DNA from: Thermaerobacter marianensis DSM 12885
GTDB lineage: Bacteria > Bacillota > Sulfobacillia > Thermaerobacterales > Thermaerobacteraceae
Direction of reading: 5' to 3'
NCBI RefSeq assembly: GCF_000184705.1
Contig: NC_014831.1
Coordinates: 2,232,001-2,296,000, forward strand
Length of the DNA: 64,000 nucleotides
Shown: in pieces, positions 12,948 through 52,330 of the stretch
How positions within the stretch are numbered: position 1 is the first letter of the stretch
Layout: each line of letters begins with the position of its first letter
Program-made: the position numbers and the translations under genes
The notes under the pieces: model-generated
What the model was told of the DNA's origin: nothing
The model's input: only the letters and a program-made list of their open reading frames with translations
Databases searched by the model: none

Positions 12948-13556
12948 CTAGAGCACTTGGACGTGGCCACGTGTAACACACACCTCAAGGGCGCCCGTAG
13001 CAGGGAAGAAGCGAACGGTCCGGCTTTCGGTACCACCGACGTCGAAGGCACCCACCGCGATGCCGGCGTCGCGCAAGGCTGAGAAGACCGCTTGGACGTT
13101 GCAGTTCCCGATGTCGGATAACATCGGCGCCGTCAGGACTCTGGCTCCCCCGGCCCCCTTAGCAACGAGCTCCGGTGGCCCTGCGCCAAACTGGCTCAGG
13201 GCTACAACCGCCCACTGTACCGCCCAGTCGGCATACCAGGCAGGTTGGGTCGGATTAACGGGTTGGTTACAGGACTCGGGGAGCACAATGTGGCACAGCG
13301 CGCCGATACGCAACCGGCGACTCCACAGTGCCAAGGCGATGCAGGACCCTAGCCCCGCCACCACCAGGATGTCATCGACTCCGCCAACAACCGCCTCTCC
13401 CAACCCAACCGTGTACACTCGTGTTCCCGAATGCACGCCGGAGCGGTCAGCGGAACGCGGTACGAAGGTCCTTCCGGAAGGCGAGTTGGGGACAGGAGCG
13501 ACCGCTGCGTGGTTCCCCACAGGTGGGGGCAGATTCTTGGGAGCAGGCGTGAACAT
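12948..13556 (-). CDS. cheD: Chemoreceptor glutamine deamidase CheD
   Basis: A 202-residue protein. The first ~45 residues are a Pro/Ser-rich extension, then the CheD fold. The catalytic Cys72 is in GLGSCIALALW and the His89 in GALCHIVLP, followed by a conserved Thr/Gly-rich segment. CheD deamidates glutamines on chemoreceptors and in Bacillus-type systems is itself regulated by CheC-like phosphatases. It begins 2 bases after the cheA stop, last in the MCP-cheW-cheA-cheD run. The CheX-type phosphatase at 18645-19127 may serve as its partner. No CheB or CheR is present in the window. Confidence 0.9.
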   Translation of the reverse strand: MFTPAPKNLPPPVGNHAAVAPVPNSPSGRTFVPRSADRSGVHSGTRVYTVGLGEAVVGGVDDILVVAGLGSCIALALWSRRLRIGALCHIVLPESCNQPVNPTQPAWYADWAVQWAVVALSQFGAGPPELVAKGAGGARVLTAPMLSDIGNCNVQAVFSALRDAGIAVGAFDVGGTESRTVRFFPATGALEVCVTRGHVQVL

Positions 13557-13558
13557 AC

Positions 13559-15622
13559 TCAGGCCACCACCTCGGCACTTGTTACGAACTCGTGGGGGGC
13601 CCCGATCCGGCTTCCCTGCCCTGCCCGTTGAACTCTGTGCCGTCGTCCTTCGTCCGCCAGTAACGCGATCAATCCAGGCACGTCGAGAATAAGCGCCAAG
13701 CCGCCGTCACCGAGGATGGTCACGCCACTCATCCCGCGCACGCCCGCAAACAACCGGGGCAGCCCCTTCACCACGATCTCCTGCTCTCCAAGCAGTCGGT
13801 CCACGACCAGGCCGACCTGCATGCTCTGGTGGTGAACAAGGACCGCCAGCAGGACACCCTCGGGACGGGGCAACGTTAACTGAGGCTGGGCGTAACGTCG
13901 CAGGAATAGAAGCGGCACCACCCGGCCGCGTACGATGGTGGCCCAGCCAGTGTGAACGGAGGAGACCTGATCAGGTCTTACGTGCAGCACTTCGGCCACC
14001 GACCCCAGGGGCAAAGCGTATGTGTCCGCCCCCACCCGGACCAGGAGCGCCCGGATCGTGGTGAGGGTGAGAGGGAGGATAAGCGCGAAGGTGGTGCCAC
14101 GGCCAGGAGTGCTTTCCACCTCGACCCGCCCGCCGGAGCCTTCGATGTTCTGGCGCACGACGTCGAGCCCGACGCCCCGGCCGGAGATGTCGGTTACCGT
14201 CTCAGCCGTGCTGAACCCGGGTGCAAAGAGCAACTCCAGCGCTTCGCGGTCACTCAGCTCCGCCGCTCGTTCGCGGCTAACGAGTCCCTTGCGGATTGCG
14301 GCGGCCCGAATGCGGTCGGGGTCGATCCCCCGGCCGTCATCTTCGATGCGCACCACCACATGGTTTCCTTCGTGGCCCGCAACTAGGCGAAGGCGTCCCG
14401 GGCGCGGTTTGCCAGCCTTGATCCGTTCTTCAGGAGGCTCAATGCCGTGATCGAGCGCGTTACGGACCAGGTGGACAAGCGGATCGGCGATGACCTCCAG
14501 CAAGGAGCGGTCCAGCTCCGTGTCTTCGCCCACCAATTCGAGCTCGACTTCCTTTCCTAGCTGTGCGGCCAGATCATGAACGAGGCGAGGGATCCGCCGG
14601 AAGACCCGGGCGATCGGCAACATGCGTGCCTTGAGCACGACCTCCTGCAGTGTCCCCGTCACCCGCCCCAGATGGGTGGTCACTTGGCTGAGCTCCTCAG
14701 CCAAATCATGGACGCCCGGGCGCTCCCCGAGACGCTCGCCCACGCGGCTCAGGCGTCCCCGGTCGATGACCAGCTCGCCCACCAGATTCATCAACCGGTC
14801 CAGCAGCTCCACATCGATGCGGATGCTGCGATCCTCAACCTGGCGGGTGGCGGTTCCAGTGGGCGTTGCGGAGGCGGAACGGGCTTGCTGGATGGTGACC
14901 CGGACGAGTTCCGGCACGTGCCTGAGTGCAGCCAGCACGGCGTCGCGATCCGCCCCTGTACGTAGCCAGACCTGCAGAGAGCGACCGACCTTCTCGGCCT
15001 CAATGAGTTCGCGAGAGGGATCGGATGCAACGATCTCACCAAGGGGCTCCAGAGCGAGGAGTACCTGGAGCGCCCGTACGGCAGGCATCGGGCAATCGGA
15101 GTCGAACGCCACGTCGATCCGCCAACTCGCATTCGCCGGGGGAAGGGCGGAATGAACCGCCCTTTCCCCCGGCCCCGCACCGCTAGCCCCGCCTGCCGCA
15201 CCTCCCGCTATGGCTTCAATCGCCGCCAGAAGTTCGGCAGGCGGGTTGCCGGGCGCTCGTCCTTCAGCCGCCTCTGCGAGCTGTCCACGCACCGTGTCCA
15301 CTGCGTCCAGCAACAACTTAACCTCTGCCGGACCAGGGACGAGACGGCCCCCGCGCATGGCGTCGAAGAGGTTTTCCATGGCATGGGTCAGTTTGGCGAT
15401 ACCCTCAAACCCCGCGGTAGCAGCAGACCCCTTGATGGTATGGGCGGCCCGGAAGATCTGATCGATCCGTTCAGGGTCCGAATGCCCGCCCTCCAAGGCG
15501 AGCAAATGATCTTCCAGCTCATCTAGAAGTTCCTCAGTCTCGGTGATAAACAGGCGAAGCTCCTCATCTCCTAGTTCCACGACGCCCTTCACTTCAGCTG
15601 GCCCCCTCTGGGACAGAGCCAT
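13559..15622 (-). CDS. cheA: Chemotaxis histidine kinase CheA
   Basis: A 687-residue kinase. Domains in order: Hpt (His61 in RAAHTIKGSA), a regulator-docking-like segment (about 165-255), dimerisation helices, HATPase_c (N box HLVRNALDHG, then DDGRGIDPD and GRGVGLDVV), and a C-terminal CheW-like domain. It autophosphorylates and passes phosphate to CheY. The first codons overlap the 3' end of cheW by 29 bases. A purine-rich stretch sits almost on the ATG, so a slightly later GTG start is possible. Confidence 0.95.
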   Translation of the reverse strand: MALSQRGPAEVKGVVELGDEELRLFITETEELLDELEDHLLALEGGHSDPERIDQIFRAAHTIKGSAATAGFEGIAKLTHAMENLFDAMRGGRLVPGPAEVKLLLDAVDTVRGQLAEAAEGRAPGNPPAELLAAIEAIAGGAAGGASGAGPGERAVHSALPPANASWRIDVAFDSDCPMPAVRALQVLLALEPLGEIVASDPSRELIEAEKVGRSLQVWLRTGADRDAVLAALRHVPELVRVTIQQARSASATPTGTATRQVEDRSIRIDVELLDRLMNLVGELVIDRGRLSRVGERLGERPGVHDLAEELSQVTTHLGRVTGTLQEVVLKARMLPIARVFRRIPRLVHDLAAQLGKEVELELVGEDTELDRSLLEVIADPLVHLVRNALDHGIEPPEERIKAGKPRPGRLRLVAGHEGNHVVVRIEDDGRGIDPDRIRAAAIRKGLVSRERAAELSDREALELLFAPGFSTAETVTDISGRGVGLDVVRQNIEGSGGRVEVESTPGRGTTFALILPLTLTTIRALLVRVGADTYALPLGSVAEVLHVRPDQVSSVHTGWATIVRGRVVPLLFLRRYAQPQLTLPRPEGVLLAVLVHHQSMQVGLVVDRLLGEQEIVVKGLPRLFAGVRGMSGVTILGDGGLALILDVPGLIALLADEGRRHRVQRAGQGSRIGAPHEFVTSAEVVA

Positions 15623-16124
15623 CCCCTTCCGTTTCTGCGGAGATGATCTCCTGTTGAACTTCTACGAGGGTTTCCTGTTCCGTCCGTTCCAGAATGCGCT
15701 CGGGATTGAGAAGAATGATGAGCTGCTGGTCAAGCCGGGCAATGCCTCGGATGAACTCCGAGCTGACGCCTGCGATGATATCCGACGGAGGTTCAATGGC
15801 ATCTTCCGGGATGCGAATGACCTCTGACACTGCGTCGACCACGAAGCCCACCGTCATCTCCCCGATTTCAACCACCACGATCCGGGTCGTACGCCCCCGT
15901 GCTTCGGCCGGCAAGCCGAACCGCCGGCGAAGGTCAATCACGGGGATGACGTGTCCTCGCAAATTGATGATGCCTTCCATAAATTCCGGGGTACGAGGAA
16001 CCCGGGTGACAGGTTGCCAGACGATGATTTCCTGAACAGCGCCGATATCAAGACCGTACGTTTCCTCACCCAGCCGGAAAACCACAAATTGTTCCTCGCG
16101 GCCGGTTGAGCTGGTCCCCGCCAT
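15594..16124 (-). CDS. cheW: Chemotaxis coupling protein CheW
   Basis: A 176-residue single CheW domain (FVVFRLGEETYGLDIGAVQEII, INLRGHVIPVIDLRRRFGL), with an acidic tail of about 25 residues. It bridges the chemoreceptor and CheA. It begins one base after the chemoreceptor stop, with GGAGGAAG inside the end of that gene serving as ribosome binding site, so translation is coupled. Confidence 0.95.
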   Translation of the reverse strand: MAGTSSTGREEQFVVFRLGEETYGLDIGAVQEIIVWQPVTRVPRTPEFMEGIINLRGHVIPVIDLRRRFGLPAEARGRTTRIVVVEIGEMTVGFVVDAVSEVIRIPEDAIEPPSDIIAGVSSEFIRGIARLDQQLIILLNPERILERTEQETLVEVQQEIISAETEGDGSVPEGAS

Positions 16125-16125
16125 C

Positions 16126-18012
16126 TTAGGCCACTTCCTCCCCCACCACCGTCTCTACGCGAAATCGTGTCACGTGGCTCTCTAGGTCCTCCATGGCCCG
16201 GTTGAGCTGCTCCGCCAGCTCGGCCATTTGGGCAGCGGCGGACCGCAGCTGTTCAACATTGGCCGAGACTTGCTCCGCGGCGGCGGCGTTCTCCTGAGTA
16301 ACGGCCGCGACCTGTTCCACCGACTTGCTGACCTGGGTGGCGCTAGCTGCCATCTCTTCGGTCGCCGCCGTGTTCTCTTCGGCTACGGCAGCCACGGTAT
16401 CGAAGGTGCGCACCACTTGCTCGGTGCTCGCGCGCAGCTCCTTAACGGCACTCGCGATACTTTCCATATCCGCAGTGACACCTTGAACAGAACTAATGAT
16501 TTCCTGTAAAGCTGTACCTGTCTGACCGGCTAGCGCTGCACCGTGTTCGACCTCGGACATCACAGCGTCCGTCGAGCGAACAGCTTCTGAGGTGGCGCTT
16601 TGGATTTGGTCAATCAACTCGGCGATTTCCCGAGCGGATGCCGCCGAACGTTCTGCGAGCTTACGAACCTCATCGGCGACTACCGCAAAGCCCCGACCGT
16701 ACTCGCCTGCGCGCGCTGCCTCGATGGCTGCATTCAGGGCCAGCAGGTTGGTCTGCTCGGCGATGTCGGAGATCACTTCGGTGATCTGACCGATTTGCGC
16801 GGAGAGTTGCCCCAGCCCACGGATCCGCTCCGCAGTTTGCTGTGCAGCCGCGCGGATGCGATTGATGCCTTCCAACGTTTGTTGGATCACTTCTCCACCG
16901 CGGCGCGCCGTGGCCGCAGCTTCTTCAGCGCGTTCATCGGTGCGCTCAGCATCTGTGGCGACGCTCTCTACGACTTGGGCGACGCGTTCCAGCAACTGCT
17001 GGGTGGTCTGCATTTCGTTGGCCGTCTGCTGGGCACCCGCGGCGATTTGCCCGATGGTCTGACGCAGTTGCTCGATGGCCTGGCGAACCTCCTCCGACGC
17101 CTGGGCTTGCTCATTGACACCCGATGCCACCTGCCCCACTGCCGCAGCAACTTCCGAGGTGCCGGAGGCGGTTTGCCTGGACGTCTGGGTCAAATCCCCG
17201 GCGATCGCCCTCACGGAACGAATGGAGGTACCCATTGCCGCAACGACTTGTTTGAAATTCGCCAGCATGGCATTGATGGCCGAAGCCGTATCCCCGACCT
17301 CGTCCCGGTTGCGCACGTACAGGTCGGAGACCGTTAGATCACCACTCGCCACGCGCTCGGCCATCTTCGCCATGTTGCGGAGGGGCGGGACAATGGAACG
17401 CAACAACAGTAGGATTCCGCCGATGCTTACGAGGAGGGCAACAAGGCTACCGATGAGCAACGTTCGCCACGCTCGCGTCTGGACCACCATCTGCTGGCTC
17501 CTGACTTCGTTGATTCGGACATCACCGAAGTCGGCCGATTGCTGAGTCAACTCTCTGAGTAGATTGCGTGGCTCTTCCAAAGTCGCAATTACCTGCCTCG
17601 CCTCTTCGGGTGATAAGCTAGATCGATTAAACACGGGCTTGATTAACGTTTGATAACGTTCGTTGGCGTCAGCGATGGCATTGGCGAGTTCTTTCCCTTT
17701 TTGGGCGCGAGCTTGGCTTTCCATCTCCTTGGCAAGATTGTCAAGCTCCGCAGCGGCTTGATTAGCGGTTTCCTGGTACTTTCGGTCACCCGTAAGAAGG
17801 TAATTGCTTACGGACTCAAACAAGATCTGTGCTTGGAGCTGGGCCTCCTGCGCTGTACCTTTCACCTGAAGAATTCGTGCCACCTCCTGGCTAATGCCAG
17901 CAAGTTCCCGCATACCACTAATCCCCAGGTACGTTACCCCACCAGCCAACGCGACAACCATGCCAAACACGAGAATAAGCTTCGTCGCAATGCCAAAACG
18001 CTTCTTTCGCAT
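16126..18012 (-). CDS. Methyl-accepting chemotaxis protein with periplasmic-type helical sensor
   Basis: A 628-residue chemoreceptor. TM1 spans about residues 9-31, an all-helical extracellular sensor (4HB/CHASE3-like) follows to about 183, TM2 spans 184-207, then HAMP (208-260) and a long cytoplasmic signalling coiled coil. The hairpin tip has the family signature NLLALNAAIEAARAGEYGRGFAVVADEVRKLAERS. Gln/Glu pairs flanking the tip are candidate methylation/deamidation sites for the downstream CheD. The ligand cannot be read from sequence. It is first in the MCP-cheW-cheA-cheD operon; 171 bases separate it from cheY. Confidence 0.95.
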   Translation of the reverse strand: MRKKRFGIATKLILVFGMVVALAGGVTYLGISGMRELAGISQEVARILQVKGTAQEAQLQAQILFESVSNYLLTGDRKYQETANQAAAELDNLAKEMESQARAQKGKELANAIADANERYQTLIKPVFNRSSLSPEEARQVIATLEEPRNLLRELTQQSADFGDVRINEVRSQQMVVQTRAWRTLLIGSLVALLVSIGGILLLLRSIVPPLRNMAKMAERVASGDLTVSDLYVRNRDEVGDTASAINAMLANFKQVVAAMGTSIRSVRAIAGDLTQTSRQTASGTSEVAAAVGQVASGVNEQAQASEEVRQAIEQLRQTIGQIAAGAQQTANEMQTTQQLLERVAQVVESVATDAERTDERAEEAAATARRGGEVIQQTLEGINRIRAAAQQTAERIRGLGQLSAQIGQITEVISDIAEQTNLLALNAAIEAARAGEYGRGFAVVADEVRKLAERSAASAREIAELIDQIQSATSEAVRSTDAVMSEVEHGAALAGQTGTALQEIISSVQGVTADMESIASAVKELRASTEQVVRTFDTVAAVAEENTAATEEMAASATQVSKSVEQVAAVTQENAAAAEQVSANVEQLRSAAAQMAELAEQLNRAMEDLESHVTRFRVETVVGEEVA

Positions 18013-18183
18013 TTCCTACCATCCTCCGTCGCGTCTGAAAAGGACTATGATGAAGCATGTTGCAGTAGCTGTGATAACCAACGTTAACTGCGTCCTCCGC
18101 ATGGGGGGGAGCTCGGCCACGGAGCGATAATGATTTGCAAAGTGTTATCCCGTTCGCGATCCGGTACTTATTGAGCAAGCCTA

Positions 18184-18558
18184 TCAACTACCCCCTTCAT
18201 TTCCGCTCAATACTCGTTCCACGGCTGCGACGACACGTTCTGGTTGGAAAGGCTTCACCACAAAGTCCTTAGCTCCGGCGCGAATGGCCTGAAGTACAAT
18301 CGATTGCTGCCCAAGTGAACTACAGACGATAATGCGGGCCTTGGGGTCCAGGTGAAGAATGGCTTCCATCGCCGCCAAGCCGTCCATCACCGGCATGGTT
18401 ATATCCAGAATGACAAGATCCGGGTGTTCCTTTTGGTACGTTTCCACAGCTTCCGCTCCGTTTGCGGCCTCGAGGACCGTATGACCGGCCTCTTTGAGTA
18501 ACGTTCCCAGGCGGAGACGCATGAAGGACGCATCGTCCGCGATTAAGATCCGCGCCAC
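18184..18558 (-). CDS. cheY: CheY-type single-domain response regulator
   Basis: A 124-residue receiver domain with all switch residues: Asp8/Asp9 (metal), Asp52 (phosphoacceptor, LDITMP), Ser80 (switch, CSSLGQ) and Lys102 (VKPF). It should be phosphorylated by the CheA encoded downstream and act on the flagellar motor or another output. It lies between cheX and the chemoreceptor gene on the same strand. Confidence 0.92.
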   Translation of the reverse strand: MARILIADDASFMRLRLGTLLKEAGHTVLEAANGAEAVETYQKEHPDLVILDITMPVMDGLAAMEAILHLDPKARIIVCSSLGQQSIVLQAIRAGAKDFVVKPFQPERVVAAVERVLSGNEGGS

Positions 18559-18644
18559 GGGGAGCAGCCCCCTTTTCGGGCGTGCGGGTAGTTGGGATTG
18601 GCATCTTGCCGAATTCAGCGATGTCGTGAGTAAAGCAAGATCGC

Positions 18645-19127
18645 TTAACTGGGACTACTATTGCCCGCCGCCCGAATCGCGGTAGCCAGCTGTATGTCTC
18701 CCAAGGGTGTGCGAAGCGGGACGATCAGTCGCTCCAGCTTGACGTTGGAGATAAGGGTCCCTCGACCTATAACCACGGTGGGTGGAGAAATGTTGCAGTG
18801 GATGCCCGATTGCTCGAAAAGGACGGAGGCCCGACCCGAAACAACGTTGGCAAACTCAGCAAAGGCGCTTTCAGCCATCTCGTCAAATACGGGTGGCAAA
18901 TTGCCCGTTACAGCTTGCACCATCCGGCGGGCAGTGGTAAATGATGTCCCATACATAGCAGTTCCTTCCACGTCACCTGCGATTCCGATCAGCGTAGTGA
19001 CATCCTCCGTCGTGTAATGGTTCGCCTCGATGGATAATTGCCCACGTTCGACCTGTTCCACTCCAAAGTCGACGCGGAGGACTTCTAAAGCGGCCGCGAT
19101 AAACGGCCGAATATAGTCCGCCTTCAT
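18645..19127 (-). CDS. cheX: CheX-type CheY-P phosphatase
   Basis: A 160-residue CheC/CheX-family protein. The phosphatase signature ExxN is visible at Glu91-Asn94 (FAEFANVVSGRA), one copy as in CheX rather than two as in CheC. It should dephosphorylate CheY-P and reset the pathway. GGAGGT lies just upstream of the ATG at 19127; the open frame continues upstream but without coding character. It is the first gene of the chemotaxis block, 86 bases before cheY. Confidence 0.85.
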   Translation of the reverse strand: MKADYIRPFIAAALEVLRVDFGVEQVERGQLSIEANHYTTEDVTTLIGIAGDVEGTAMYGTSFTTARRMVQAVTGNLPPVFDEMAESAFAEFANVVSGRASVLFEQSGIHCNISPPTVVIGRGTLISNVKLERLIVPLRTPLGDIQLATAIRAAGNSSPS

Positions 19128-19809
19128 GGGTTCCGACCTCCATTGCAATGAGACAAACCGGAAATGGTGAAAAATAGGATACATGCATCCGGTCTCCGAC
19201 AGTGACTTCCCCCGTGGAGCGGTTGGGGCGAAATGGCGGTTTGCGTCGGAGAGGCGGACTACGGATGCACCTGGGCAGACGAGGAGAGGGCGGCTTAGAC
19301 CTTGGGGAATTGCCGCCTTGCCATTAATTAGGACAACAGGGGGGGGGTAGAACCTTCCAGAGCAGCGGAGGCAAGCACCGAACGCTGCCACCCGGTGATG
19401 AACGAGAGCACGCCAGCCCCCGCTCCGGTGGCAAACAGGCTCCGGTTCACAAACACGTAACAAGCAGCGTCTACGCTCTCGCCTACACGGATCCCGCGTT
19501 CCCCGCCCAGGCTCGGGCTCGAGCAGGATTGCCCGCCAGCACCGGTCGTCCCGGAGCTCCGGCGCCCTTTGGCGGAGGGACTCCGGAATCGCCCCGCCTG
19601 GGTTGGTAAAAGACGCGCCATTGATCCTCGCAATGTTTGGACGCGGGCGCTGCTGCGACGTCCTGGTAGCTGGTAAGCGACCAAAGCCTTCTTCCTCCAC
19701 CCGCGGTCAACTTGCATGCAGCCATGCACCAGCGACCAGCGACCCACACACCAGGTGTCGCTGGCTTACCGGTTTCCCTTCAGGGTTATCGAGCGAGCGT
19801 CCCGGGCGT
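19128..19809. other. Region without a supported gene
   Basis: Several overlapping open frames on the minus strand but none with recognisable motifs. It should carry the promoter of the cheX-cheY block near its left end. Frequent partial frames and a G9 run at 19337-19345 suggest decayed sequence. Confidence 0.4.
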
Positions 19810-33940: not shown

Positions 33941-34285
33941 CCACGGCAAGATTCGCGCGGTTTGCATCGACCTGAAGGAGGGCCGGCGACGCGCCGTGCA
34001 GCGGGCTTTGCCGGGCGTGCTCGTGGTGACCGGTCCCTTTCACGTCATCCAGGACGCTAATCGGCGGGTGGACGACGCCCGTCGCGTGGAACAGGCGGTG
34101 ACCTACCGGCCAGGGCATCCCGTGGTGGTCGCTGGTGAAGAACGAGGAGAACCTCACCGACCAACAGGCCGCCCAACGGGCGCCCATCCGCAAGCGACTA
34201 GAACGTGGCCCACTTTCACTGGGTCAAGGAGCAATTGCGGGACGTCTACCGCGCGTCCAGCCGGGAGGAGGCCGCGGCGATTCTG
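33941..34285 (+). pseudogene. ISL3-family transposase fragment
   Basis: Plus-strand frames read [42 protein letters not shown], then [10 protein letters not shown] and [17 protein letters not shown], which are successive blocks of the ISL3 DDE domain (usually VxDxFHV). At least two frameshifts. The 3' part is replaced by an IS3 fragment at about 34286. Confidence 0.65.
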
Positions 34286-34786
34286 GCTGTACCTGGCCAC
34301 GGTGGTGGACGGCTTCTCCCGCGCCGTGGTGGGCTGGGCCATGGGCGACCGGCCCGTGGCGGAGTTAGTGGTGGACGCCGCCACCATGGCGGTGCGGCGG
34401 CCGGCCGGGGCCCGGCTTGATCCGCCACTTCGACCATGGGGCACGGTACACCTCGCTGGCATTCACCCGCCGCTTGGAGGCCCTGGGCATCGCCGGATCG
34501 ATGGGTTCCATGGGCGATGCGCTGGACAACGCTCTGGCGGAGCGTTTCTACGCGACCCTGCAATCGGGAGTTCCTCGACCGCCAAACCTGGGCCACACGG
34601 GATCAACTGCGCATGGCGATCTTTGAGTACGTCGACCGGTTCTACAACCGGCGGCGGCGTCACTCGGCACTTGGTTACCTCTCTCCCTACGAGTAGGAGG
34701 AGCGTTGGGACCCGGAGCGAAAGGTTCAGCCCCAGGAAGGGGTTGTCGCGTGAGCCTCAACCTGTCCACGCAAGCGGGTCAACTTC
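34286..34786 (+). pseudogene. IS3-family OrfB C-terminal fragment with right terminal repeat
   Basis: Frames carry [50 protein letters not shown] and [22 protein letters not shown], the C-terminal half of an IS3-type integrase, with frameshifts. The terminal repeat TGTCCACGCAAGCGGGTCAAC ends at 34786 and matches the ends of the IS3 element at 51355-52646. Confidence 0.8.
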
Positions 34787-34919
34787 ACCCCACACGGGAC
34801 GCCCTGACTCCACAAACCGGACGAGACAAGGAATGCCCCCGACCGGAGGCAGCGTGGCTTGTCCCGCCTTCGGCTCCGACCGATCCCGACGTGAGTCCGT
34901 TCACCAAGGGGGAGATGAC

Positions 34920-36716
34920 ATGTCCACGCAACGGTATTCTGTGACACCCCACCCCATCGAAACCTTGCTCGCCTGGGTCAAGTCGGGAGAGATCGCCATT
35001 CCTGAGATCCAGCGGCCCTTCGTCTGGAGTGCGACTAAGGTTCGCGACTTCCTGGATTCCCTCTACCGGGGCTACCCCGTTGGCTACCTCATCGCCTGGC
35101 GCAATCCCACCGTCCGGTTGAAGGACGGCACCCTGTCGGCCGGAAAGCGGATCCTCATCGACGGGCAACAGCGGGTTACAGCCCTGCGGGCCGCCCTCCT
35201 GGGCGAGGAGGTGTTGGACGAAAACTACGCCCGGAAACGCATCCACATCGCCTTCAACCCCCAGGAGGAGCGCTTTGAAGTCCGTAACTCCGCCATCGCC
35301 AGGGACCCGGCCTGGATCGACGACATCAGTCGCCTGTTCGCCCCGGATGCCTATCTGGGGGACTTCGTCGACGACTACGTAGAAAAGAATCCGGATACCG
35401 ATCGCAAGCAGGTGGGCCGGATCCTAGAACGGCTGAAGAAGATCGTGAACAACCACATCGGCCTGATCGAGCTGGCGGAAGACCTTGACATCGAGACTGT
35501 CACCGAGATCTTCATCCGGGTGAACTCGGCCGGGGTGGAACTGTCCCAGGCCGACTTCGCCATGTCCAAGATCGCCGTCAACGAGACCTATGGCGGGCAC
35601 CTTCTGCGGAAGGCCATCGACTACTTCTGCCACCTGGCCCGGAACCCGGAATTCTACATCCACATTGAGAAGAACGATACCGAGTTCGCCCGGAGCGAGT
35701 TCTGGCCCAAGATGAAGTGGCTCAAGGACTTCAACGACGACCTCTACGACCCGGATTACACGGATATGCTGCGGGTCGCCTTCACCACCCGGTTCGGCCG
35801 GGGCAGGCTGCAGGACCTAGTCGCCCTGCTGTCGGGTCGCAACTTTGAGACCCGGCAGTACGAGGAAGCCATCGTTGAGGATTCCTTTGCCAGGCTCAAG
35901 GACGGCATCCACGCATTCATCAACGAGACCCACTTCAAGCGCTTCGTGATGATCCTCCGCTCAGCAGGCTTCATCACGGGCAACATGATCACCAGTCACA
36001 ACGCGGTGAACTTCGCCTACATCCTGTACCTGCGGGGTCGGTCCGAGGGCATTGCGGCCGATGAGCTGGAACGCATTGTGCGACGATGGTATGCGATGTC
36101 CATCCTGACAGGACGGTATACAACTCACCCAGAGACAGTCTTCGATCTCGACATTCGTCAAATCGAGAGCCATGGCATCGCGCGCTACACGGAAGCCGTC
36201 CTGAGCAGCGAGCTCTCCGACAGCTTTTGGACCACGCTTCTTCCTCAACTGATGGAAACCTCTTCACTGCAAAGTCCCTATTTCGTCGCCTTTAAGGCGG
36301 CGCAAGTTTGCCTTGGCGACAGGGGATTTCTTTCCACCAACATCACCGTTCGGGATCTTATCCTCAATCATGGTGATCACCATCACATCTTCCCGAGGAA
36401 GTACCTGCAGCAGCTCGGGCTGAGCCGGGGCCGCTACAACCAGATCGCCAACTTCGTCATCGCCCAGAGTGAGATTAATATTGCCATCGGCGATACCCCA
36501 CCCCACATCTACTTCAAGGAGTTGTGGGACCAGGTCAACGGCGGCCCCAAGAAGTACGGTGGCATCACAGATCCAGAGACACTGGGGAGGAATCTTGAGG
36601 AAAATTGCATCCCCCTGGCCGTGCTGGACGGCGATGTGCCGGATTATGATTCGTTCCTGGCTGAGCGTCGCCGCTTGATGGCGCTTCGAATCAAGCAATG
36701 GTTTGAGAGACTATAG
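34920..36716 (+). CDS. DUF262-DUF1524 (HNH-like) protein, GmrSD/SspE-like putative antiphage nuclease
   Basis: A 598-residue protein. The N-terminal DUF262 (ParB-like/GmrS_N) domain has [10 protein letters not shown] (27-36) and the nucleotide-binding motif DGQQR at 81-85. A long helical middle follows. Near the C-terminus is an HNH-like His-Ile-Phe-Pro motif (HHHIFP, 487-492) with a following Asn in YNQIANFVI, typical of DUF1524/GmrSD_C. This domain pair is that of GmrSD type IV restriction enzymes and of SspE, which cleave modified DNA or use NTPs to sense phosphorothioate DNA. Whether the target is modified phage DNA is inference. ATG at 34920 follows AAGGGGGAG. It stands alone, 133 bases past an IS3 end, with no Ssp or Dnd modification genes in view. 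Confidence 0.85.
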
Positions 36717-39932: not shown

Positions 39933-41297
39933 TATGAAAGGGATGCAAGCCCTACGCCCCTCTCAGAGCAGCCACCACCTCCTCCACACCAGGGTCGAGC
40001 CGATCGCTGCCCCAGAAGTCCTTGCAGACGTACGCTAGGCCTTCCCGCGCGAGGCGCCGTTCCTTGATCCGCCGGAGATCCTCCCGCCCGTCCAGGTACT
40101 CCGTGTCACGAACCAGCACGAGCCACATGAAGGCCAGCAATTTCCGGGCTGCGGCCACGATCGCCACGTGGTGCCCTTTCTTGGCCCGAAGGCGGAGATC
40201 GAAGCGCTGCAACCGGCCGGGGCTCCTCACCGCCTTCTGCGCCGCCTGCACCAGCACCCAGCGCAGATGCCGGCGGCCGGCCTTGGTGATCGAGCCGGTG
40301 TACCGCACGCTCCCGGATTGGTGCACCGACGGCACCAGGCCGGCGTAACTCGTCACATGCTTCGGCGACGGGAACCGGCTCGCATCACCGAGTTCGGCGA
40401 TCACCATCAGCGCGGTGAACACGTCCACTCCGGGAATGGCAAGCAGCTTCCGCACCCCGGGGACCGATTGGGCTCGCCGGTACAGTTCCCTCCGGAGCGC
40501 CTCCAGTTGCGCTTCCACCCGGTCGAGCACCTGCAGCGCCGAGTCGACGATGATCTGTTCCGCCTCCGGGAGCTGCCCGCGTATGCGCTGCAGGTAAGCC
40601 CGACCGCCCCGCCCAAAAAGGTCCGTGAACGGGCAACGGAGCCCCTGCCGCATCAGCACGCCGTGCACCTGGTTCTTGAGCACCGTCTTCTGCTTGACCA
40701 GGCAGCACCAGTGTCCCAGCAGGCTCCGTAGCTCCCGCACCGGCTTCGGGGGTACCCACACCCGAGCCACGAAGTCGGCCTTGAGCAACCGGGCCAGGAT
40801 CTCGGCATCGATCTTGTCGGTCTTGATCCTCGCCTCGGCGATGGCCCGGGTCTTCAGCGGGTGAGCCACCACGACCTCCCGGGCACGGCCAGCGAGCAGG
40901 TCGTAGATCCAGAAGGCGTTGCCCGTGGCCTCAAGGCACACGGCGGCGTCCCGGTCCAGGGAGGCGGCAAAGCGTTGCCATGCCTCCGGCGTGTTGCGAA
41001 ACCGGAAGCGCCTGACAGTCGTCTCGCCGTCCCGAAGCTCGGCCGCCTCGACGGAGGTACGGTGGATGTCCAGCCCGATCCATCGCATGGCTGATCCCTC
41101 CCCATCGGGGTGGGTGCAGGCAGGGAGGAGTGCGACACTCACCTATCCGGGGTCTACGCCCCACTTGGGCGGGTCGAGGGGCGGCCACACATGCCGTCGG
41201 GCTTTCTCGCCCAGATCGAATCCCGGCCGCCCTGACCTGCACCCGCATGTTCCCCCTGCCCGCTACCCACCTTCGATGGGCTTGCATCCCTTTCATA
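39933..41297 (-). mobile_element. IS110/IS1111-type insertion sequence with 20-bp inverted repeats
   Basis: TATGAAAGGGATGCAAGCCC at 39933-39952 is the exact reverse complement of 41278-41297. Inverted repeats near the ends are the mark of the IS1111 subgroup within IS110. The element encloses one apparently intact transposase, and its right side cuts an IS256 transposase gene. True tips may lie a few bases outside the repeats. Confidence 0.8.
39952..41088 (-). CDS. IS1111-type IS110-family transposase (intact)
   Basis: A 378-residue transposase. The N-terminal DEDD motifs are GLDIHRTS, CLEATGNAF and IKTDKIDAEILARLL. A coiled middle follows, then a C-terminal Transposase_20 domain (RKLLAIPGVDVFTALMVIAELG, FPSPKHVTSYAGLVPS, GSVRYTGSITKAGRRHLRW) with the catalytic Ser region. 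No stop or frameshift, so it is one of only two intact transposases here. ATG at 41088 follows GGGGAGGG. Confidence 0.88.
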   Translation of the reverse strand: MRWIGLDIHRTSVEAAELRDGETTVRRFRFRNTPEAWQRFAASLDRDAAVCLEATGNAFWIYDLLAGRAREVVVAHPLKTRAIAEARIKTDKIDAEILARLLKADFVARVWVPPKPVRELRSLLGHWCCLVKQKTVLKNQVHGVLMRQGLRCPFTDLFGRGGRAYLQRIRGQLPEAEQIIVDSALQVLDRVEAQLEALRRELYRRAQSVPGVRKLLAIPGVDVFTALMVIAELGDASRFPSPKHVTSYAGLVPSVHQSGSVRYTGSITKAGRRHLRWVLVQAAQKAVRSPGRLQRFDLRLRAKKGHHVAIVAAARKLLAFMWLVLVRDTEYLDGREDLRRIKERRLAREGLAYVCKDFWGSDRLDPGVEEVVAALRGA

Positions 41298-42335
41298 CCC
41301 ACATGCCGACAAAATTTGACCGGCCTTGACAGTCCAGTTGCTCCCGGGCAGACGCCAGGTCGGGGTGAGCAAAGATCATTCGCACCAGGGCTGCGACGAT
41401 CGGCTGGGCGTGCTTGGGCACCCGGGCCAGCAGGTTCCGCATGAAGTGCACCCGGCACCCCTGCCAGCTGGCGCCCGCCAGCACCTCGCTTATGGCACGC
41501 TTGAGCCCGTCGAGAGCATCGGAGATCACCAGCCGAACGCCCTTGAGCCCGTGGGCCACCAGGTAGCGAAGGAACTCCAGCCAGAACTCGTACGTCTCGA
41601 CGGCGCCTATGTCAAAGCCCGGCACCTCGCGCTCTGCGTTTCACTTCGCCCCGACGGCAATGACTGCGGCCATGTTCACCACCCGCTGGTTCTGACGCAC
41701 CCTGATTGGCTTGGCATCGAGCCACACGTAGGGGTACTCGCCTTCCAGGGGGCGGTTGCGGAGGCGCTCCACCGCTCGTCCAGTTCCGCACAGAGCCGGG
41801 AGACTTCGCTTTTACTGATGCGGTACAGGCCCAAGGCCCGGACCAGGTCGTCGACTTTGCGGGTGCTGACCCCCTGCACATACGCCTCCTGTACCACGGC
41901 GACCAGGGCCCGTTCCGCCCGCCGGCGTGGCTCCAGCAGGCTTGGAAAGTAGCTGCCCCGGTGGAGTTTGGGGATCCGCAGCTCGCTGGTGCCCACCCGT
42001 GTATCCGAGGGCCGGGACCGATAGCCGTTCCGCTGCGTTTTCCGGCTCTCCGTGCGTTCGGACCGCTGAGCGCCGATTAGCTCACTGACGACGAGCTCCA
42101 TGAGCTTTTGAGCAAATCAGCACAATCCTTCCCGCAGGGTATCGACTTCTGGCTCCCCCTGGTGTTTGCGCAGAAGTTCGAGAAGTGCCACCCTAAAATC
42201 ATCGGTTACCGTTGAGCGGACCTCTCTTCGAGCCGGTCCTTGCCCAACCGACGGGGAGCAACCGGTGACCTTTCTTGTCAAGGGCCACCAGGCCCGGACC
42301 CTACAGTCCGCCGAATTCCACCACCACCTGGGACA
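41298..42335 (-). pseudogene. IS256-family element truncated by the IS1111-type insertion
   Basis: Left tip at about 42335 (GTGTCCCAGGTGGTGGTGGAA). The transposase is read on the minus strand as MELVVSELIGAQRSERTESRKTQRN through SKSEVSRLCAELDE, a frameshift near 41780, and then FDIGAVETYEFWLEFLRYLVAHGLKGVRLVISDALDGLKRAI, ending at about 41330. The C-terminal third with the catalytic Glu is missing at the IS1111 junction. Confidence 0.85.
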
Positions 42336-42501: not shown

Positions 42502-42544
42502 TATTCCAAAGGAAGTGTCGTACCTTATATTCCAAAGGAGGTGT
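42502..42544 (+). repeat. Duplicated ribosome-binding segment upstream of the DUF262-AlbA_2 gene
   Basis: TATTCCAAAGGAAGTGT (42502-42518) and TATTCCAAAGGAGGTGT (42528-42544) are 16/17 identical direct repeats with 26-base periodicity. The second copy is the ribosome binding site of the ATG at 42547. A third AGGAGG lies at 42497-42502. Confidence 0.75.
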
Positions 42545-42546
42545 AT

Positions 42547-44355
42547 ATGTTGTCCAACCCAACCATCGATCTCAACATTCGAGGCGAGAATGTTCAGGAG
42601 CTCTATTCATGGTACCTGGAAGGTCGCCTGGTCGTTAACCGGCGCTACCAGCGAAAGCTTGTCTGGACAAAAGAAGAGAAAGTGCATCTGATCGACACAA
42701 TGTTGCGCAGATACCCTATGCCACTGATTCTATTAGCGGAAATTGAAATAGATGGCATCCCAAAGTACGAGATTATTGATGGCATGCAAAGACTTAATGC
42801 GATCTTTAGTTTCATCGAAAACAAATTTCAAGTTCGTGGAACATATTTTGATCTAGCTACGATGGCATCAGCTAAGCAGCTACTCGACGAAGGTTTGTTA
42901 GTACAGAAGACGCCCATAATGGGACGAAATCTGTGTGTCCAGTTTGCAAATTATAAGATCCCAATATCAACATATAAAATTGACAGGGACGAGGACATTG
43001 AGGAAATTTTCAGACGAATTAACGCCTATGGTCGGAGACTATCCAATCAAGAAATAAGACAAGCTGGGGTTACAGGCCCATTTGCCGACTTGGTGAGAGA
43101 CCTCGCCGCAGAGATTAGAGGTGATGTTTCACACAATCAGGTGTTGCTTCTGAATGACATGGATAAGATTAGCATCACGAACAGAGAACTTGACTACGGT
43201 ATCAAAGTTGAAGATGTTTATTGGGTTACTAACGGAATCCTTCGCAAAGAAGATGTCCGTGACAGCCGTGACGAAGAAATTATCGCTGATCTTATAGCTT
43301 TTATCGCGCATCCCCCAGACGACAAGCCGCCAAGCCATAGCCAGTTACTTGACGAATACTATGGTCGGCCAGTTGATTCTTCCGATGCAGCCGCAAAACG
43401 TGCGCAGGAAAGAAAAAGGAATATCGATCTCCTGGTCAGCCGAGTTGGAACTCAGTTGTTAAAAGATCGTTTTCTCAGTACACATGACTTTATTTCTAAT
43501 GTGCTTACGACAGCGCAGCAGGGTTTTAAGGACCTCGTACGCGGCCAAGGCACGAATGATCGTCTTCCAAGGTATTATCAGGTTATATTTTGGGCTATTT
43601 ACGAACTGCTCTTTGTTGACCGAAAGAGGTGTGTTGATATCAACGGTCTGATTAAGACACTAGGAGGAATTGATCGACACATTAGGATTACCAGTGGCGG
43701 CAAATGGAGCCGTCAAAACCGGACACAAAATGTCAATTCAGTTAAGGGCATGTTAGACCCGTTCTTTGCCTATAACCCTGACGACCCTGTCGCCGTTACA
43801 GGTGTACGAGAGTTGGAGAATTTATTGACCAGATCAACAACCGAAGCTGCTAGTTACGACTTTAAGCAGGGACTTCATCGCTTAGACGAATCTAAAGCCT
43901 TTGACCACGATGCATTCGAAAAGATCCTTGAAACTATCTGCGCAATGGCCAATTTAGGCAAGAACAAAGTCGGTTATATCGTGCTCGGGGTTGCCGACAA
44001 GGAAGCAGATGCGAGGAGGGTCAGAGCACTTTACGGTGTTGATCCGATTCAGGTCGGACATTTCTTCGTCGTCGGTGTGGATAGGGAGGCCATGCTGTTT
44101 CATACAAATGTCGATAAGTATCTGCAGCTCATCTCCAATAAAATCATCCAAAGTCAGCTTTCGGATGAGATCCGCTTAAAAGTAGCATCTTCGATCGAAG
44201 CCATAGATTACAACGGACGCACTGTTTTTATTATCAAAGTTGAAGCTGGAACACGAGAATGTTTCATCGGCGATAGGATGTACAAACGTGTTGGCTCTCA
44301 GACTGTTGCGGTGTCGCCAAGGGAAATCCCCCATATTGCTAGATTGTTTCAGTAA
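42547..44355 (+). CDS. DUF262-AlbA_2 (Schlafen-type) fusion protein
   Basis: A 602-residue protein. The N-terminal DUF262/ParB-like domain shows NRRYQRKLVW (31-40) and IDGMQRLNAI (77-86), where the usual DGQQR is DGMQR. A central helical part spans about 200-420. The C-terminal domain (about 425-595) fits AlbA_2/Schlafen: TEAASYDFKQG with Phe439, then ICAMANLGKNKVGYIVLGVAD, and a late DRMYKRVGSQTVAVSPREI typical of this domain. No HNH nuclease motif is present, unlike the 34920 protein. AlbA_2 domains occur in Schlafen-like nucleases and in antiphage or regulatory proteins, so a defence role is plausible but unproven. The gene is markedly AT-richer than the genome, flanked by IS pieces, and followed by a terminator at 44418. 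ATG 42547 is set by AAAGGAGG. Confidence 0.8.
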   Translation: MLSNPTIDLNIRGENVQELYSWYLEGRLVVNRRYQRKLVWTKEEKVHLIDTMLRRYPMPLILLAEIEIDGIPKYEIIDGMQRLNAIFSFIENKFQVRGTYFDLATMASAKQLLDEGLLVQKTPIMGRNLCVQFANYKIPISTYKIDRDEDIEEIFRRINAYGRRLSNQEIRQAGVTGPFADLVRDLAAEIRGDVSHNQVLLLNDMDKISITNRELDYGIKVEDVYWVTNGILRKEDVRDSRDEEIIADLIAFIAHPPDDKPPSHSQLLDEYYGRPVDSSDAAAKRAQERKRNIDLLVSRVGTQLLKDRFLSTHDFISNVLTTAQQGFKDLVRGQGTNDRLPRYYQVIFWAIYELLFVDRKRCVDINGLIKTLGGIDRHIRITSGGKWSRQNRTQNVNSVKGMLDPFFAYNPDDPVAVTGVRELENLLTRSTTEAASYDFKQGLHRLDESKAFDHDAFEKILETICAMANLGKNKVGYIVLGVADKEADARRVRALYGVDPIQVGHFFVVGVDREAMLFHTNVDKYLQLISNKIIQSQLSDEIRLKVASSIEAIDYNGRTVFIIKVEAGTRECFIGDRMYKRVGSQTVAVSPREIPHIARLFQ

Positions 44356-46895: not shown

Positions 46896-48512
46896 CTACC
46901 CGGCGGGGGTCGTGGCGGGACGTGGCATCGGCTGCACCCGAGCCGGCGGCCGCAGACCTACGGCTTTGAAGGCTTCGTAGGCTTGTCCTACCAGCTCGGT
47001 CCGGGTGAGGTAGGTCTCGCCATCGAGTTCGACGGCCACGGCATGGAGCTGGGCAAGGTGGCTCATAACGTCCTCGTAGCTCGCCTCGGGGTTTTGCTGA
47101 CGGAGTTTGCGCAACAAGAGGCTCTCCAGGACCAGCGCCAGGAAGCAGACCATCACGTGCCCCCGGACTCGTCGCTCCGTCCAGTGGAACATCGGCCGCA
47201 AGTCCAGGGCGGACTTGAGGGTGCGGAAGGCGCGCTCGACCCGCCAGAGATCCTTGTACGCCCGCACCACGGCCTCCGGATCGAGGTCGGTGTTGGTCCG
47301 CAGCAGGTACTTCCCATCGTAGCGGGCGGCCCGTTTCAAAACGTCCGCGTCAACCACCAACGCGCCCTGGGGCAGGGCCTTGAGGTAACGGGCCATGAGG
47401 CGGTTCCGCAGGAGCTCCTTGGCTTGGCCGCGCTCGATCCGCTGCTTCAGGGGCGCGAGGACCGCCTCCCGGGCCTGGCGGTCGTGCTCGGCCTGGAGGG
47501 GATTGTGGCAGAGGATGTAGCGCTGGCCCTGGTGGATCACCTGCTTGATGCGGAGCTGCTCGTCGATCACCCGATAACGCCCCGGCTGGCTCAGGACGGC
47601 CTCGGCCTCCCGGTGGCGCCGCAGGGGCATGCCGACGATGTACTCCATCCCGGCTTCCTCGATGGCCCACAGGATCTGACGGCTAACCATGCCCCGGTCG
47701 GCGACGAAGATCACCCGGCGCAGGTGGAAACGCCGCTTAAGCGCGTCCAGGACGGTCTCGACCGTCGCCTTGTCGGCGGTATCGCCCGGGAAGACCTCGT
47801 GGGCGATGGGGTAGCCGTCCCGGGTCATGAGCACGCCGACCACTAGTTGGGGCCGGTCCGGGCGCTTGTCGCGGGAATAGCCGTAAGCGGCCAAGCCCTC
47901 GGGTCCTCGGCCTTCGAAGTAACTGGATGTCGTGTCCCAAAGGACGACGTCGACCTCGGCCCAGAACAGGTCGCGGGCGCGGGCGAAGAGGCGATCCTCG
48001 ATCGCCTCCTTGTGCTCGGCCAACACATCCAGGGCGCGGTAGTAGTGGTGCAGTTCCAACTGCTCGGCCTGGGGCCGGTAGACGCCCTGCAGCCACTGCC
48101 GGACGAGGCCGCGCTTGGAGCAGGGGTCGGTGAGGCGGTTGAGGACCATGGTGAAGACGGCCTCGGCGACATCGAAGGCCAGCTGGCGATCTTGCAGGAG
48201 GGCCTCGAAGGCTTTGTCCAGTTCGGCCTCTCGCCACAGCCGTTCGAAGATCAGCGCCGGACCCCACTGCTTGGACCAGCGGACGTTCAAGCGTTCCGCC
48301 TGTTCTTCGAGCCGCCGCCAGCTGCTCTGGGAGAAGCGGGTCAGACTCTCGATGAGGGCATCGAGCCGGCCGTCCTGGAGATCCTCCAGCCGGCCTAGGG
48401 TGGCGACCACCCGCTGGCGGACGCGGCCGCCCTGGCGCACGCTCTCGACGAGCTGGAGGTAGGTGCGGGTGGAGCCGTCTTTGTTCTTGAAGGTCTTCTG
48501 CCGGATGAACAT
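46896..48512 (-). CDS. IS1634-family transposase (intact)
   Basis: A 538-residue IS4-superfamily DDE transposase with no stops. Catalytic residues are in VVLWDTTSSYFEG (Asp), VIFVADRGMVSRQI (Asp) and the Y/E-type helix DLWRVERAFRTLKSALDLRP (Glu). It is the only intact member of four IS1634 pieces in the window. The element's 5' tip runs to about 48685, inside the end of the MFS gene. Between tip and ATG lies a terminator-like hairpin. Confidence 0.9.
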   Translation of the reverse strand: MFIRQKTFKNKDGSTRTYLQLVESVRQGGRVRQRVVATLGRLEDLQDGRLDALIESLTRFSQSSWRRLEEQAERLNVRWSKQWGPALIFERLWREAELDKAFEALLQDRQLAFDVAEAVFTMVLNRLTDPCSKRGLVRQWLQGVYRPQAEQLELHHYYRALDVLAEHKEAIEDRLFARARDLFWAEVDVVLWDTTSSYFEGRGPEGLAAYGYSRDKRPDRPQLVVGVLMTRDGYPIAHEVFPGDTADKATVETVLDALKRRFHLRRVIFVADRGMVSRQILWAIEEAGMEYIVGMPLRRHREAEAVLSQPGRYRVIDEQLRIKQVIHQGQRYILCHNPLQAEHDRQAREAVLAPLKQRIERGQAKELLRNRLMARYLKALPQGALVVDADVLKRAARYDGKYLLRTNTDLDPEAVVRAYKDLWRVERAFRTLKSALDLRPMFHWTERRVRGHVMVCFLALVLESLLLRKLRQQNPEASYEDVMSHLAQLHAVAVELDGETYLTRTELVGQAYEAFKAVGLRPPARVQPMPRPATTPAG

Positions 48513-48670: not shown

Positions 48671-49921
48671 TTAAACCCGAGTCATACCCGGGTTTCCAGC
48701 ATCAAACGGTCGAAACACGCCCACCGCAACACCGCACAACAACAACAACCCACCGAAAACGCCTAATGCGGCACTTGCACTAACATTCTCGGTTATAACA
48801 CCAGCAATAGCGGCCCCGACGGGGCGCAGAACACTCAATACCGCATATACAATACCCACTGTTAATCCACGCACCTCTTCGCTAAGTCGCAACTGCCAAC
48901 ATGTATCCGCAAAAATCGATACCCAGACCAACATTACACCGCTTAAGACGGCGCCGGCAACCAAAGGCAACATCCCGCCCGCTAAAGCAATCCCCCAATA
49001 TGCCATCGCCATCCCGAGCAAACCAACGCTGATGGTCAATGAACTATTCCCAATTTTTCGGGCGAGCCCACATATCCCCAAAAAAACTCCGGCAACCAAC
49101 ATACCTCCTTGATAAGCCGCCTGCAACAATCCGTAAAATGTAATGTTTTCCCCCGACACCTCAATGGACCGAAATGGGATTGCAACCGAAAAGGCTTGAA
49201 TACTTCCATTAGCCAATGCACCTACAACAACATATGCCAAAACTACGGAATTATAAAGCATATTCCTGACAATTACCCTACGTTCTCTTAGCCCAACTTT
49301 TTGGATTTGTGTCGGAGGTACTCGTTTTAATAACATCCACGCAGATGTGGCACAGATCGCAAGCACAACCCCGTACGATGCGACACTCGATAATATGCCG
49401 AACCGCGCCACCAAAAACGCTCCGATGACCGGGCCAATGCTCCGCCCAGCGTTGCGCAACAACTGTACGGTCCCGTTAAACCGAGATAAATGTTCGCTTG
49501 GTACAACGCCTGGCAAAATCGTCGCGACACCAACATCGTTGACTCGACCGACACCCGCTACGATAGCAAGGATAACCACAGCAGCCAGTATGTCGGCATA
49601 CCTCCACCCAAACGCACCAATAGTCGTGACTCCCGCCGCCATGACCACGATTGCGGCAACCACAAACACCTTCGATATGGTCAACCCTCTGTTCCGGTTG
49701 TCCAGAAGGAATCCGATACTGGGCGCAACTGCAACTCCAACCACGGTAGGAACCATCAACACAAAACTAGCTGCTACGGCCGACTGTGTACGTTCCACTA
49801 CACGCCAAACCGCAGAAGTGGTTATGAGACGATCACCCACTGCTAGGAGCAATGTCGTAGTCATCAACAGGAAAACCGGCCGAATATCCATCCTGGGTCG
49901 ATCAGCGGTTGGTGTATTCAC
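48671..49921 (-). CDS. MFS transporter with IS-derived C-terminus
   Basis: A 416-residue protein with about 12 hydrophobic segments and an MFS-type loop after TM2 (FLLDNRNRGLT). It is probably an efflux or metabolite exporter; no substrate can be assigned. Base composition is clearly less GC-rich than the surroundings, with many AT-ended codons. GTG at 49921 follows GGAGG by 9 bases and overlaps the preceding gene by 20 bases. The final codons ACT CGG GTT TAA coincide with the IS1634 terminal sequence seen at 7065-7090, so the insertion has replaced the natural end of the gene. Confidence 0.8.
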   Translation of the reverse strand: MNTPTADRPRMDIRPVFLLMTTTLLLAVGDRLITTSAVWRVVERTQSAVAASFVLMVPTVVGVAVAPSIGFLLDNRNRGLTISKVFVVAAIVVMAAGVTTIGAFGWRYADILAAVVILAIVAGVGRVNDVGVATILPGVVPSEHLSRFNGTVQLLRNAGRSIGPVIGAFLVARFGILSSVASYGVVLAICATSAWMLLKRVPPTQIQKVGLRERRVIVRNMLYNSVVLAYVVVGALANGSIQAFSVAIPFRSIEVSGENITFYGLLQAAYQGGMLVAGVFLGICGLARKIGNSSLTISVGLLGMAMAYWGIALAGGMLPLVAGAVLSGVMLVWVSIFADTCWQLRLSEEVRGLTVGIVYAVLSVLRPVGAAIAGVITENVSASAALGVFGGLLLLCGVAVGVFRPFDAGNPGMTRV

Positions 49922-51149: not shown

Positions 51150-51345
51150 ACTAGAGCATGTTATGCGAGAGAAGCGGCAAGCTGAACCCATGGGACCGTA
51201 GGAAATTGCGAGCGATTGGATGGGATACCGTCCGTTCCCGCCCCCGGTAACGGCTTCTCACAAGTCCGTGCCACGCCTTGGCCTCCCCAAAGGTGCGCTC
51301 GATGACCTTCCGCACGCGCAAGCCCCATTTTAGCCCCCGCGGCCG
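51150..51345 (-). pseudogene. IS1182/IS5-like transposase C-terminal remnant
   Basis: The minus strand reads RKVIERTFGEAKAWHGLVRSRYRGRE, the conserved C-terminal block of IS1182/IS5-type transposases with the catalytic Glu (usually ERxFGEAKxWHG). Upstream sequence is replaced by the IS3 element. Confidence 0.65.
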
Positions 51346-51390
51346 GTTTGCTTCGGGGTTGACCCGCTTTCGTGGACAGGTTGAGGCTTA

Positions 51391-52330
51391 CGCGAAAACC
51401 CCTTCCTGGGGCTGAGCATTTCGCTCCTGGATCCAACGCTCCTCGTACTCGTAGGGCAAGAGGTAACCAAGTGCCGAGTGACGCCGCCGCCGGTTGTAGA
51501 ACCCTTCGACGTACTCGAAGATCGCCTTGCGCAGTTGGTCCCGCGTGGCCCAAGCTTGGCGGTCGAGGAGCTCCCGTTGTAGGGTCGCGTAGAAACTATC
51601 CGCCATCGCGTTGTCCAGCGCATCGCCTACGGAACCCATTGGTCCGGCGATACCCAGGACCTCCAAGCGACGGGTGAATGCCAGCGAGGCGTATTGCACG
51701 CCGTGGTCGGAGTGGTGAATCAGACCGGGTCCCGGCCGGCGACGCTGTACCGCCATGGTGACGGCGTCGGCCACCAACTCCGCCACGGGCCGGTCCCCCG
51801 TGGCCCAGCCCACCACGGCGCGGGAGAAGGTATCGACCACCGTAGCCAGGTACAGCCATCCTTCCCCCGTGCGATGCTACGTGAGGTCCGCCACCCCCAC
51901 CCGGTTGGGCGCATCGGGCACAAACTGGCGATGCAGCCGATCCGGATCGACGGGACGTCGCGGACCCCGGCAGGTCACCCCTAGGTTCCTGCGGCGGTAG
52001 ACCCCGGTGAGCCCCATGGACCGCATCAGCCGATCGATGCGCTTGCGCCCGCAACGGATGCCATGAACCAGCCGAAGTTCGGCGTGCACTCACGGAGCCC
52101 CGTAGGTGCCCCGGCTCGCGGTGTGGATGGCGCGGATGCGCCGGCTCAGTTCTGCGTCTTCGCGGGACCGCTGCGATATCCCGCGCCGTCGCCATTGCGT
52201 CGTAGCCGCTTGTCGAGACGCCCAGCACACGGCACAAGGTCGCCACATGGTGATGCTCCTTCTCCTGCTCGACGAACCAGAACACCGCTACCTGCTCCGG
52301 CGGGTCTTCCGAGCGAAGAAGGCGGCGGCT
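51391..52330 (-). pseudogene. IS3-family OrfB integrase, interrupted
   Basis: Blocks in order: KAAAFFA entry, VWFVEQEKEHHHVATLCRVLGVSTSGYDAM, a frameshift, RLVHGIRCGRKRIDRLMRSMGLTGVYRRRNLG, PNRVGVADLT, a TAG at about 51881, then [33 protein letters not shown] (Asp), MGSVGDALDNAMADSFYATLQRE (Glu) and [13 protein letters not shown]. One stop and at least one frameshift make it inactive. Confidence 0.85.

Follow-up and report, generated by a model that had tools for sequence, protein, structure and literature searches.

The window analysed here, a 64-kb stretch of a complete 2,844,696-bp genome, contains two genes encoding DUF262 proteins. One encodes a fusion of a DUF262 domain to a Schlafen-type AlbA_2 domain and is the subject of this study; the other is a GmrSD-type gene that was overlooked in the original prediction for this locus. 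Their features are as follows (conservation refers to the family of 97 members described below):

34920..36716, + strand: canonical GmrSD-type gene, 598 aa, the second DUF262 gene, outside the fusion gene (motifs, PADLOC, BrxU match)
42534..42541, + strand: ribosome-binding site AAAGGAGG, 5 nt ahead of the ATG (read from the sequence)
42547..44355, + strand: coding sequence of the DUF262 - helical middle - SLFN_AlbA_2 fusion protein, 602 aa (ORF reading, Pfam, model)
42631..43065, + strand: DUF262 / GmrSD_N domain, residues 29-173, ParB/Srx fold (Pfam E 6.9e-23, structural matches)
42778..42792, + strand: DGMQR, putative nucleotide-binding motif, residues 78-82 (D, G, Q and R invariant in 97 members; role by analogy with DGQQR)
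43066..43785, + strand: helical middle region, residues 174-413 (models, structure searches)
43786..44352, + strand: Schlafen AlbA_2 domain with lead-in, residues 414-602 (Pfam E 3.3e-11, structural matches)
43843..43872, + strand: predicted catalytic signature E433-x4-D438-x-K440-x-G442 (alignment of 97; match to SLFN ExxxxExK)
43996..43998, + strand: D484, candidate third carboxylate (D or E in 96/97)
44287..44289, + strand: R581, invariant arginine close to the end of the AlbA_2 domain (alignment of 97)

The fusion gene reads from an ATG at 42547 to a stop codon ending at 44355, and its ribosome-binding site is strong. As originally described, it is AT-rich (44.8% GC vs. 64.0% for the window) and lies among insertion sequence (IS) remnants and seemingly complete transposases of the IS110, Mutator/IS256, and DDE_Tnp_1 types. 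The contrast first drawn between an intact gene and surroundings that are almost all broken was overstated, however: a Mutator-type transposase (41293-42101) and some other transposase copies are indeed broken, but an IS110 transposase (39952-41142), a DDE transposase of 538 aa (46896-48512), an MFS transporter (48671-49921), and the second DUF262 gene all appear to be full length. Selection inferred from intactness among wreckage is thus a weak argument, as the resident GmrSD-type gene nearby is also intact. An IS3-type transposase fragment occurs in two copies of opposite orientation (85-89%), at 34284-34802 and 51339-51858; they enclose about 16.5 kb including both DUF262 genes, an arrangement resembling a decayed composite element. 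Elsewhere in the window, a chemotaxis-type cluster on the minus strand (11301-19700) encodes CheX/CheC, MCP, CheW, CheA, and CheD, accompanied by HD-domain and SpoIIE-phosphatase genes.

The GmrSD-type gene, which precedes the fusion gene by 6 kb, carries an IDGQQR motif and an HNH-like HHIFP motif (HHIFPRKY), and its product matches BrxU (1.6e-8). One window ORF matches the PADLOC model HEC-05 (E 3.9e-30), and we assign this match to the GmrSD-type gene because no other window ORF was found to contain DGQQR. The gene is present in all four genomes of the genus (91-97%), unlike the fusion gene, which is absent from the other three. The locus therefore holds a resident GmrSD-type gene and a newly acquired fusion gene side by side.

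The domain order read earlier from the sequence, with an N-terminal DUF262 core (RYQRKLVW and IDGMQR), a helical centre, and a C-terminal AlbA_2 block, was borne out throughout. Both the GmrSD_N and the SLFN_AlbA_2 matches (the latter at residues 434-589) exceed the Pfam gathering thresholds, and the absence of the usual HNH/DUF1524 half also held, as there is no Pfam match to DUF1524 and the C-terminus is AlbA_2; among the family members, an HNH-like [HD]H..P pattern occurs in only 1 of 97. An AlphaFold model built from 70 family sequences reached a mean pLDDT of 91.9. In VIA-align comparisons, its C-terminal domain (the last 185 residues), which models as AlbA_2 as proposed, matched DIP2311 (Z 10.4, 129 aligned, rmsd 3.0), SAMD9 (Z 9.9 and 9.3), SLFN5 (Z 8.9), SLFN14 (Z 7.4), and SLFN11 (Z 7.1), while the N-terminal half matched SspE (residues 3-162, Z 8.4), ParB/Noc (Z ~7), and DndI (Z 5.9); a Z of 6 to 8 is not decisive by itself, but the Pfam matches and the conserved motifs point the same way. 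Residues 9-405 together matched BrxU (Z 8.6, 281 aligned) with an rmsd of 11.3, and the relative placement of the subdomains therefore differs between the fusion model and BrxU. The helical middle, modelled separately with a pLDDT of 92, retrieved no trustworthy solved relative in structure searches (best Z 2.7). No model or chain spans the whole fusion protein in PADLOC, NCBIfam, or a phmmer search against the PDB; PADLOC 2.0 models match one half only, with NsnA and PD-T4-2_A covering just the N-terminal 190-250 residues. A blue-light photoreceptor chain (2mwg), the top match of the PDB profile searches, was discarded as spurious. The family profile also gave a weak AlbA_2-like match to CbCash (PDB 9ylu/9ylv/9ylx, E 0.17), which may be a further Schlafen-type protein of bacteria.

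We collected 108 full-length relatives, all spanning both domains and mostly 585-613 aa long, and scored conservation over the 97 that remained at <90% mutual identity, which are 30-65% identical to the window protein. In the DUF262 half, NRRYQRK is nearly invariant, and D78, G79, Q81, R82, F155, R157, N159, and S166 are invariant (97/97); residue 80 in DGxQR is M in 71 members, L in 25, and T in one, and never Q. In SspE, the arginine of the corresponding DGQQR is essential to GTP hydrolysis and defence (PMC13251355). In the AlbA_2 half, E433, K440, G442, G481, G510, and R581 are likewise invariant (97/97), and residue 438 is D in 71 members and E in 26. The resulting Exxxx(E/D)xK signature has the same spacing (5 and 2) as Schlafen ExxxxExK, of which each residue in SLFN11 (E209, E214, and K216) is required for tRNA cleavage (PMC9482658) and which is the critical core motif in SLFN14 (PMC12215978). 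A third carboxylate is present in both the fusion family and SLFNs, being of lesser importance in the latter. These conserved Schlafen and DGxQR motifs suggest that both halves are catalytically competent. The original prediction had the nuclease half replaced by a nucleic-acid/NTP domain; the HNH half is indeed gone, but because the C-terminal domain keeps the signature needed by active Schlafen RNases, the nuclease has been swapped rather than lost.

The fusion had also been put forward as a possible new defence effector. The architecture is real, but it extends beyond this genome to a wide family already annotated in RefSeq, as "GmrSD restriction endonuclease domain-containing" or "DUF262 domain-containing" proteins. 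The architecture survey that had been called for places the 97 non-redundant members in eight phyla, including one archaeon. Full-length relatives include proteins from an Azotobacter plasmid (42.5%), an E. coli prophage (38.6%), and enterobacterial plasmids (36%), and 145 plasmid records span 80% or more of the query. When GTDB genomes were scanned with a profile, 241 stretches with a relative emerged; the best 80 of these were taken further and come from Bacillota, Pseudomonadota, Cyanobacteriota, Bacteroidota, Actinomycetota, Acidobacteriota, Myxococcota, and one archaeon, with the closest in Cohnella (65%), Nannocystis (60%), and Duganella (58%). A five-member alignment retrieved 32 relatives from IMG/VR, where a single-sequence query gave no match, and the GenBank phage collection contained no full-length match.

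The family is rare yet widely scattered, and patchy within taxa: at least 80% of the gene is present in 132 of 5,426 E. coli genomes, and a Pseudomonadota sample contained it in 2 of 398 genomes, one being the chosen centre. The GC content of the fusion gene is below that of its flanks at 89 of 91 loci (median -11 points), and the protein tree mixes phyla, requiring 18 phylum changes against a minimum of 7. The gene is horizontally transferred and mobile. Such a distribution, down to one of four genomes in the genus here, argues against a regulatory or other non-defence role in which the AlbA_2 half would be merely a nucleic-acid-binding module. AlbA_2 is frequently annotated as RNA or DNA binding and catalysis by this family is a prediction from sequence, but given the strong mobility and a catalytic signature conserved in every member, we regard such a role as very improbable.

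Across 96 loci, in a survey of flanking genes that covered any phosphorothioation genes among them, no conserved partner gene or operon was found; the recurrent neighbour families are mainly P2 structural genes. A same-strand neighbour lies within 50 bp upstream at only 4 of 91 loci and downstream at 3 of 92. The gene acts alone, as had been supposed. On bacterial chromosomes, its immediate neighbours are mostly ordinary genes, only a minority being defence genes (retron RT, RM, Eco47II); it is thus often a lone islet, and for the same reason we dropped "defence island" as the only evidence. On 10 P2-like viral contigs, the gene directly adjoins the portal gene gpQ. For a subset of these the opposite flank was scanned as well, and it contained matches to the replication (origin-nicking) gene. 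The gpA-gpQ interval is an experimentally validated defence hotspot (PMC9122126; also PMC9519451), where P2 itself carries old and tin (PMC9122126). At three further loci (L019, L102, and L134, the last from E. coli XH988), the gene sits in the P2 interval between V and S, with the late genes on the other strand, and at L114 gene V is on one side and the sequence stops inside the fusion gene. With these four loci, the V-S interval emerges as a further cargo site of P2-like prophages besides gpA-gpQ.

Hundreds of copies or remnants reside on conjugative enterobacterial plasmids, adjoining pemIK and a CPBP protease gene. On IncFII plasmids, the gene comes after repA, the CPBP protease gene, and pemIK, and in many of them it is interrupted at around codon 440 by a segment that has IS1 at its borders and contains TEM-1 or CTX-M genes; both the 5' and the 3' part of the gene adjoin an IS1 remnant. 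What remains of the gene after this multiresistance insertion, on hundreds of plasmids, is the 5' part, ending at about codon 440, and an AlbA_2 remnant from the 3' end, the latter often named "RNA-binding domain-containing protein" in RefSeq; examples of split genes are L135 (NZ_CP028484.1, 6001-7438) and L154 (NZ_CP032991.1, 4921-5499). On one plasmid, TIR and Lit-family genes lie near the fusion gene, and one copy sits within a MOBH conjugation cluster. The plasmid abundance and the MOBH copy would suit a gene for competition between mobile elements, acting by exclusion or incompatibility against other plasmids or conjugation rather than against phages, and a Pseudomonas study reportedly linked a DUF262 gene to plasmid fitness cost. 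Since defence hotspots of P2-like prophages carry the gene too, and it forms single chromosomal islets in many phyla, we consider plasmid competition improbable as its function. The defence role first suggested is supported as likely by the hotspot locations, the mobility, and the absence of a conserved partner.

Our favoured reading, held with modest confidence, is that the fusion gene spread by horizontal transfer and works as a one-gene antiphage defence: its DUF262 NTPase sensor would control a Schlafen-type RNase where an HNH DNase is usually found. The architecture, the fold, the conservation of both active-site signatures, the stand-alone status, the mobility, and the hotspot location are observed; the NTPase activity, the trigger, RNA as the substrate, and an abortive outcome are what we infer. 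SspE and BrxU couple NTP turnover by DUF262 to a C-terminal HNH-type nuclease, and the AlbA_2 domains of Schlafens and SAMD9 cleave tRNA. As a DUF262-Schlafen fusion carried as defence-hotspot cargo, the protein therefore probably stops infections by cutting RNA, not DNA. Sensing and switching would fall to the DUF262 domain and helical middle, as in BrxU and SspE; what they read is probably some feature of incoming DNA. NTP turnover or an oligomer rearrangement may then free or pair the C-terminal AlbA_2 domains, which would form a Schlafen-type metal-dependent RNase; two protomers, each with one AlbA_2 lobe where Schlafens have two, could pair to complete the RNA cleft. The RNA cut would most likely be tRNA (or rRNA), leading to a translation halt and an aborted infection. 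This more specific scheme, a rewired restriction-enzyme sensor that recognises invading DNA and drives a two-protomer Schlafen-type tRNase, thereby converting DNA recognition into translational shutdown, is put forward tentatively. Three observations count against the favoured view: on bacterial chromosomes the gene mostly has ordinary neighbours, AlbA_2 domains occur in DNA-binding proteins too, and IncFII plasmids tolerate disruption of the gene.

A DNA-acting enzyme of the type IV restriction kind, in which DUF262 recognises modified or foreign DNA and AlbA_2 cuts or nicks it, seems unlikely to us, although the characterised DUF262 effectors in the literature consulted do act on DNA, the SLFN catalytic centre is described as restriction-endonuclease-like (PMC12215978), which fits an AlbA_2 domain cutting DNA, and the SAMD9 and SLFN5 entries carry a DNA-binding annotation as well. 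In the same literature, the characterised AlbA_2 nucleases with ExxxxExK (SLFN11, SLFN13, and SLFN14), and also the SAMD9 tRNase domain, are RNases, and the structural matches of the C-terminal domain include those SLFN/SAMD9 RNase domains.

If the sensor-gated RNase proposed here is correct, it shows that a DUF262 sensor can be linked to an effector that cuts RNA, and the fusion would offer a compact one-gene system to ask what DUF262 proteins sense, apart from DNA cleavage. It would also give a likely function to a gene present, whole or broken, on many IncF plasmids, and add to the relatives of the antiviral RNases of humans, Schlafen and SAMD9, a bacterial protein whose attached sensor can be recognised; SLFN11/14 and SAMD9 use the same type of catalytic domain against viruses. 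The literature consulted contained no published activity for any family member and no paper combining DUF262 with AlbA_2; the main text of a survey of enterobacterial DUF262 clusters (PMC12373910) gives only HNH or DUF1524 effectors.

Among known systems, BrxU and GmrSD share with the fusion protein the N-terminal ParB-like DUF262, the helical middle, and the status of a single-gene effector on mobile elements. They possess DUF1524/HNH and DGQQR, whereas the fusion has DGMQR or DGLQR and a Schlafen AlbA_2 nuclease; with DUF1524 tested for and absent, it is not a GmrSD. The phosphorothioate-sensing SspE and DndI share the DUF262 NTPase fold and the sensor-switch-effector layout, but the fusion lacks both an HNH domain and conserved neighbouring genes of any sort. 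PD-T4-2, Menshen, and Dazbog also have a DUF262 without DUF1524, paired with a different effector, although they are multi-component by description and the fusion is a single gene. On the other side, bacterial Schlafens have been placed in defence (Taboada et al., 2025, bioRxiv 10.1101/2025.07.24.666596, as cited in PMC12839542); these proteins and the BREX-linked Schlafen-kinase-wHTH proteins reportedly likewise combine a Schlafen RNase as abortive effector with another module, and the set of Taboada et al. could include a DUF262 fusion. The Schlafen RNases (SLFN11/13/14) and the SAMD9 tRNase domain share the AlbA_2 fold, and SLFNs also share the ExxxxExK catalytic signature with equal spacing, except that most fusion members have D as the second E. 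The Schlafen core has two lobes that form the tRNA groove, whereas Pfam and the model reveal a single AlbA_2 domain per fusion protein, which is thus not a full Schlafen core; and while the SLFN/SAMD9 domain is joined to a helicase or STAND-type region, the AlbA_2 domain of the fusion is joined to a bacterial DUF262 module.
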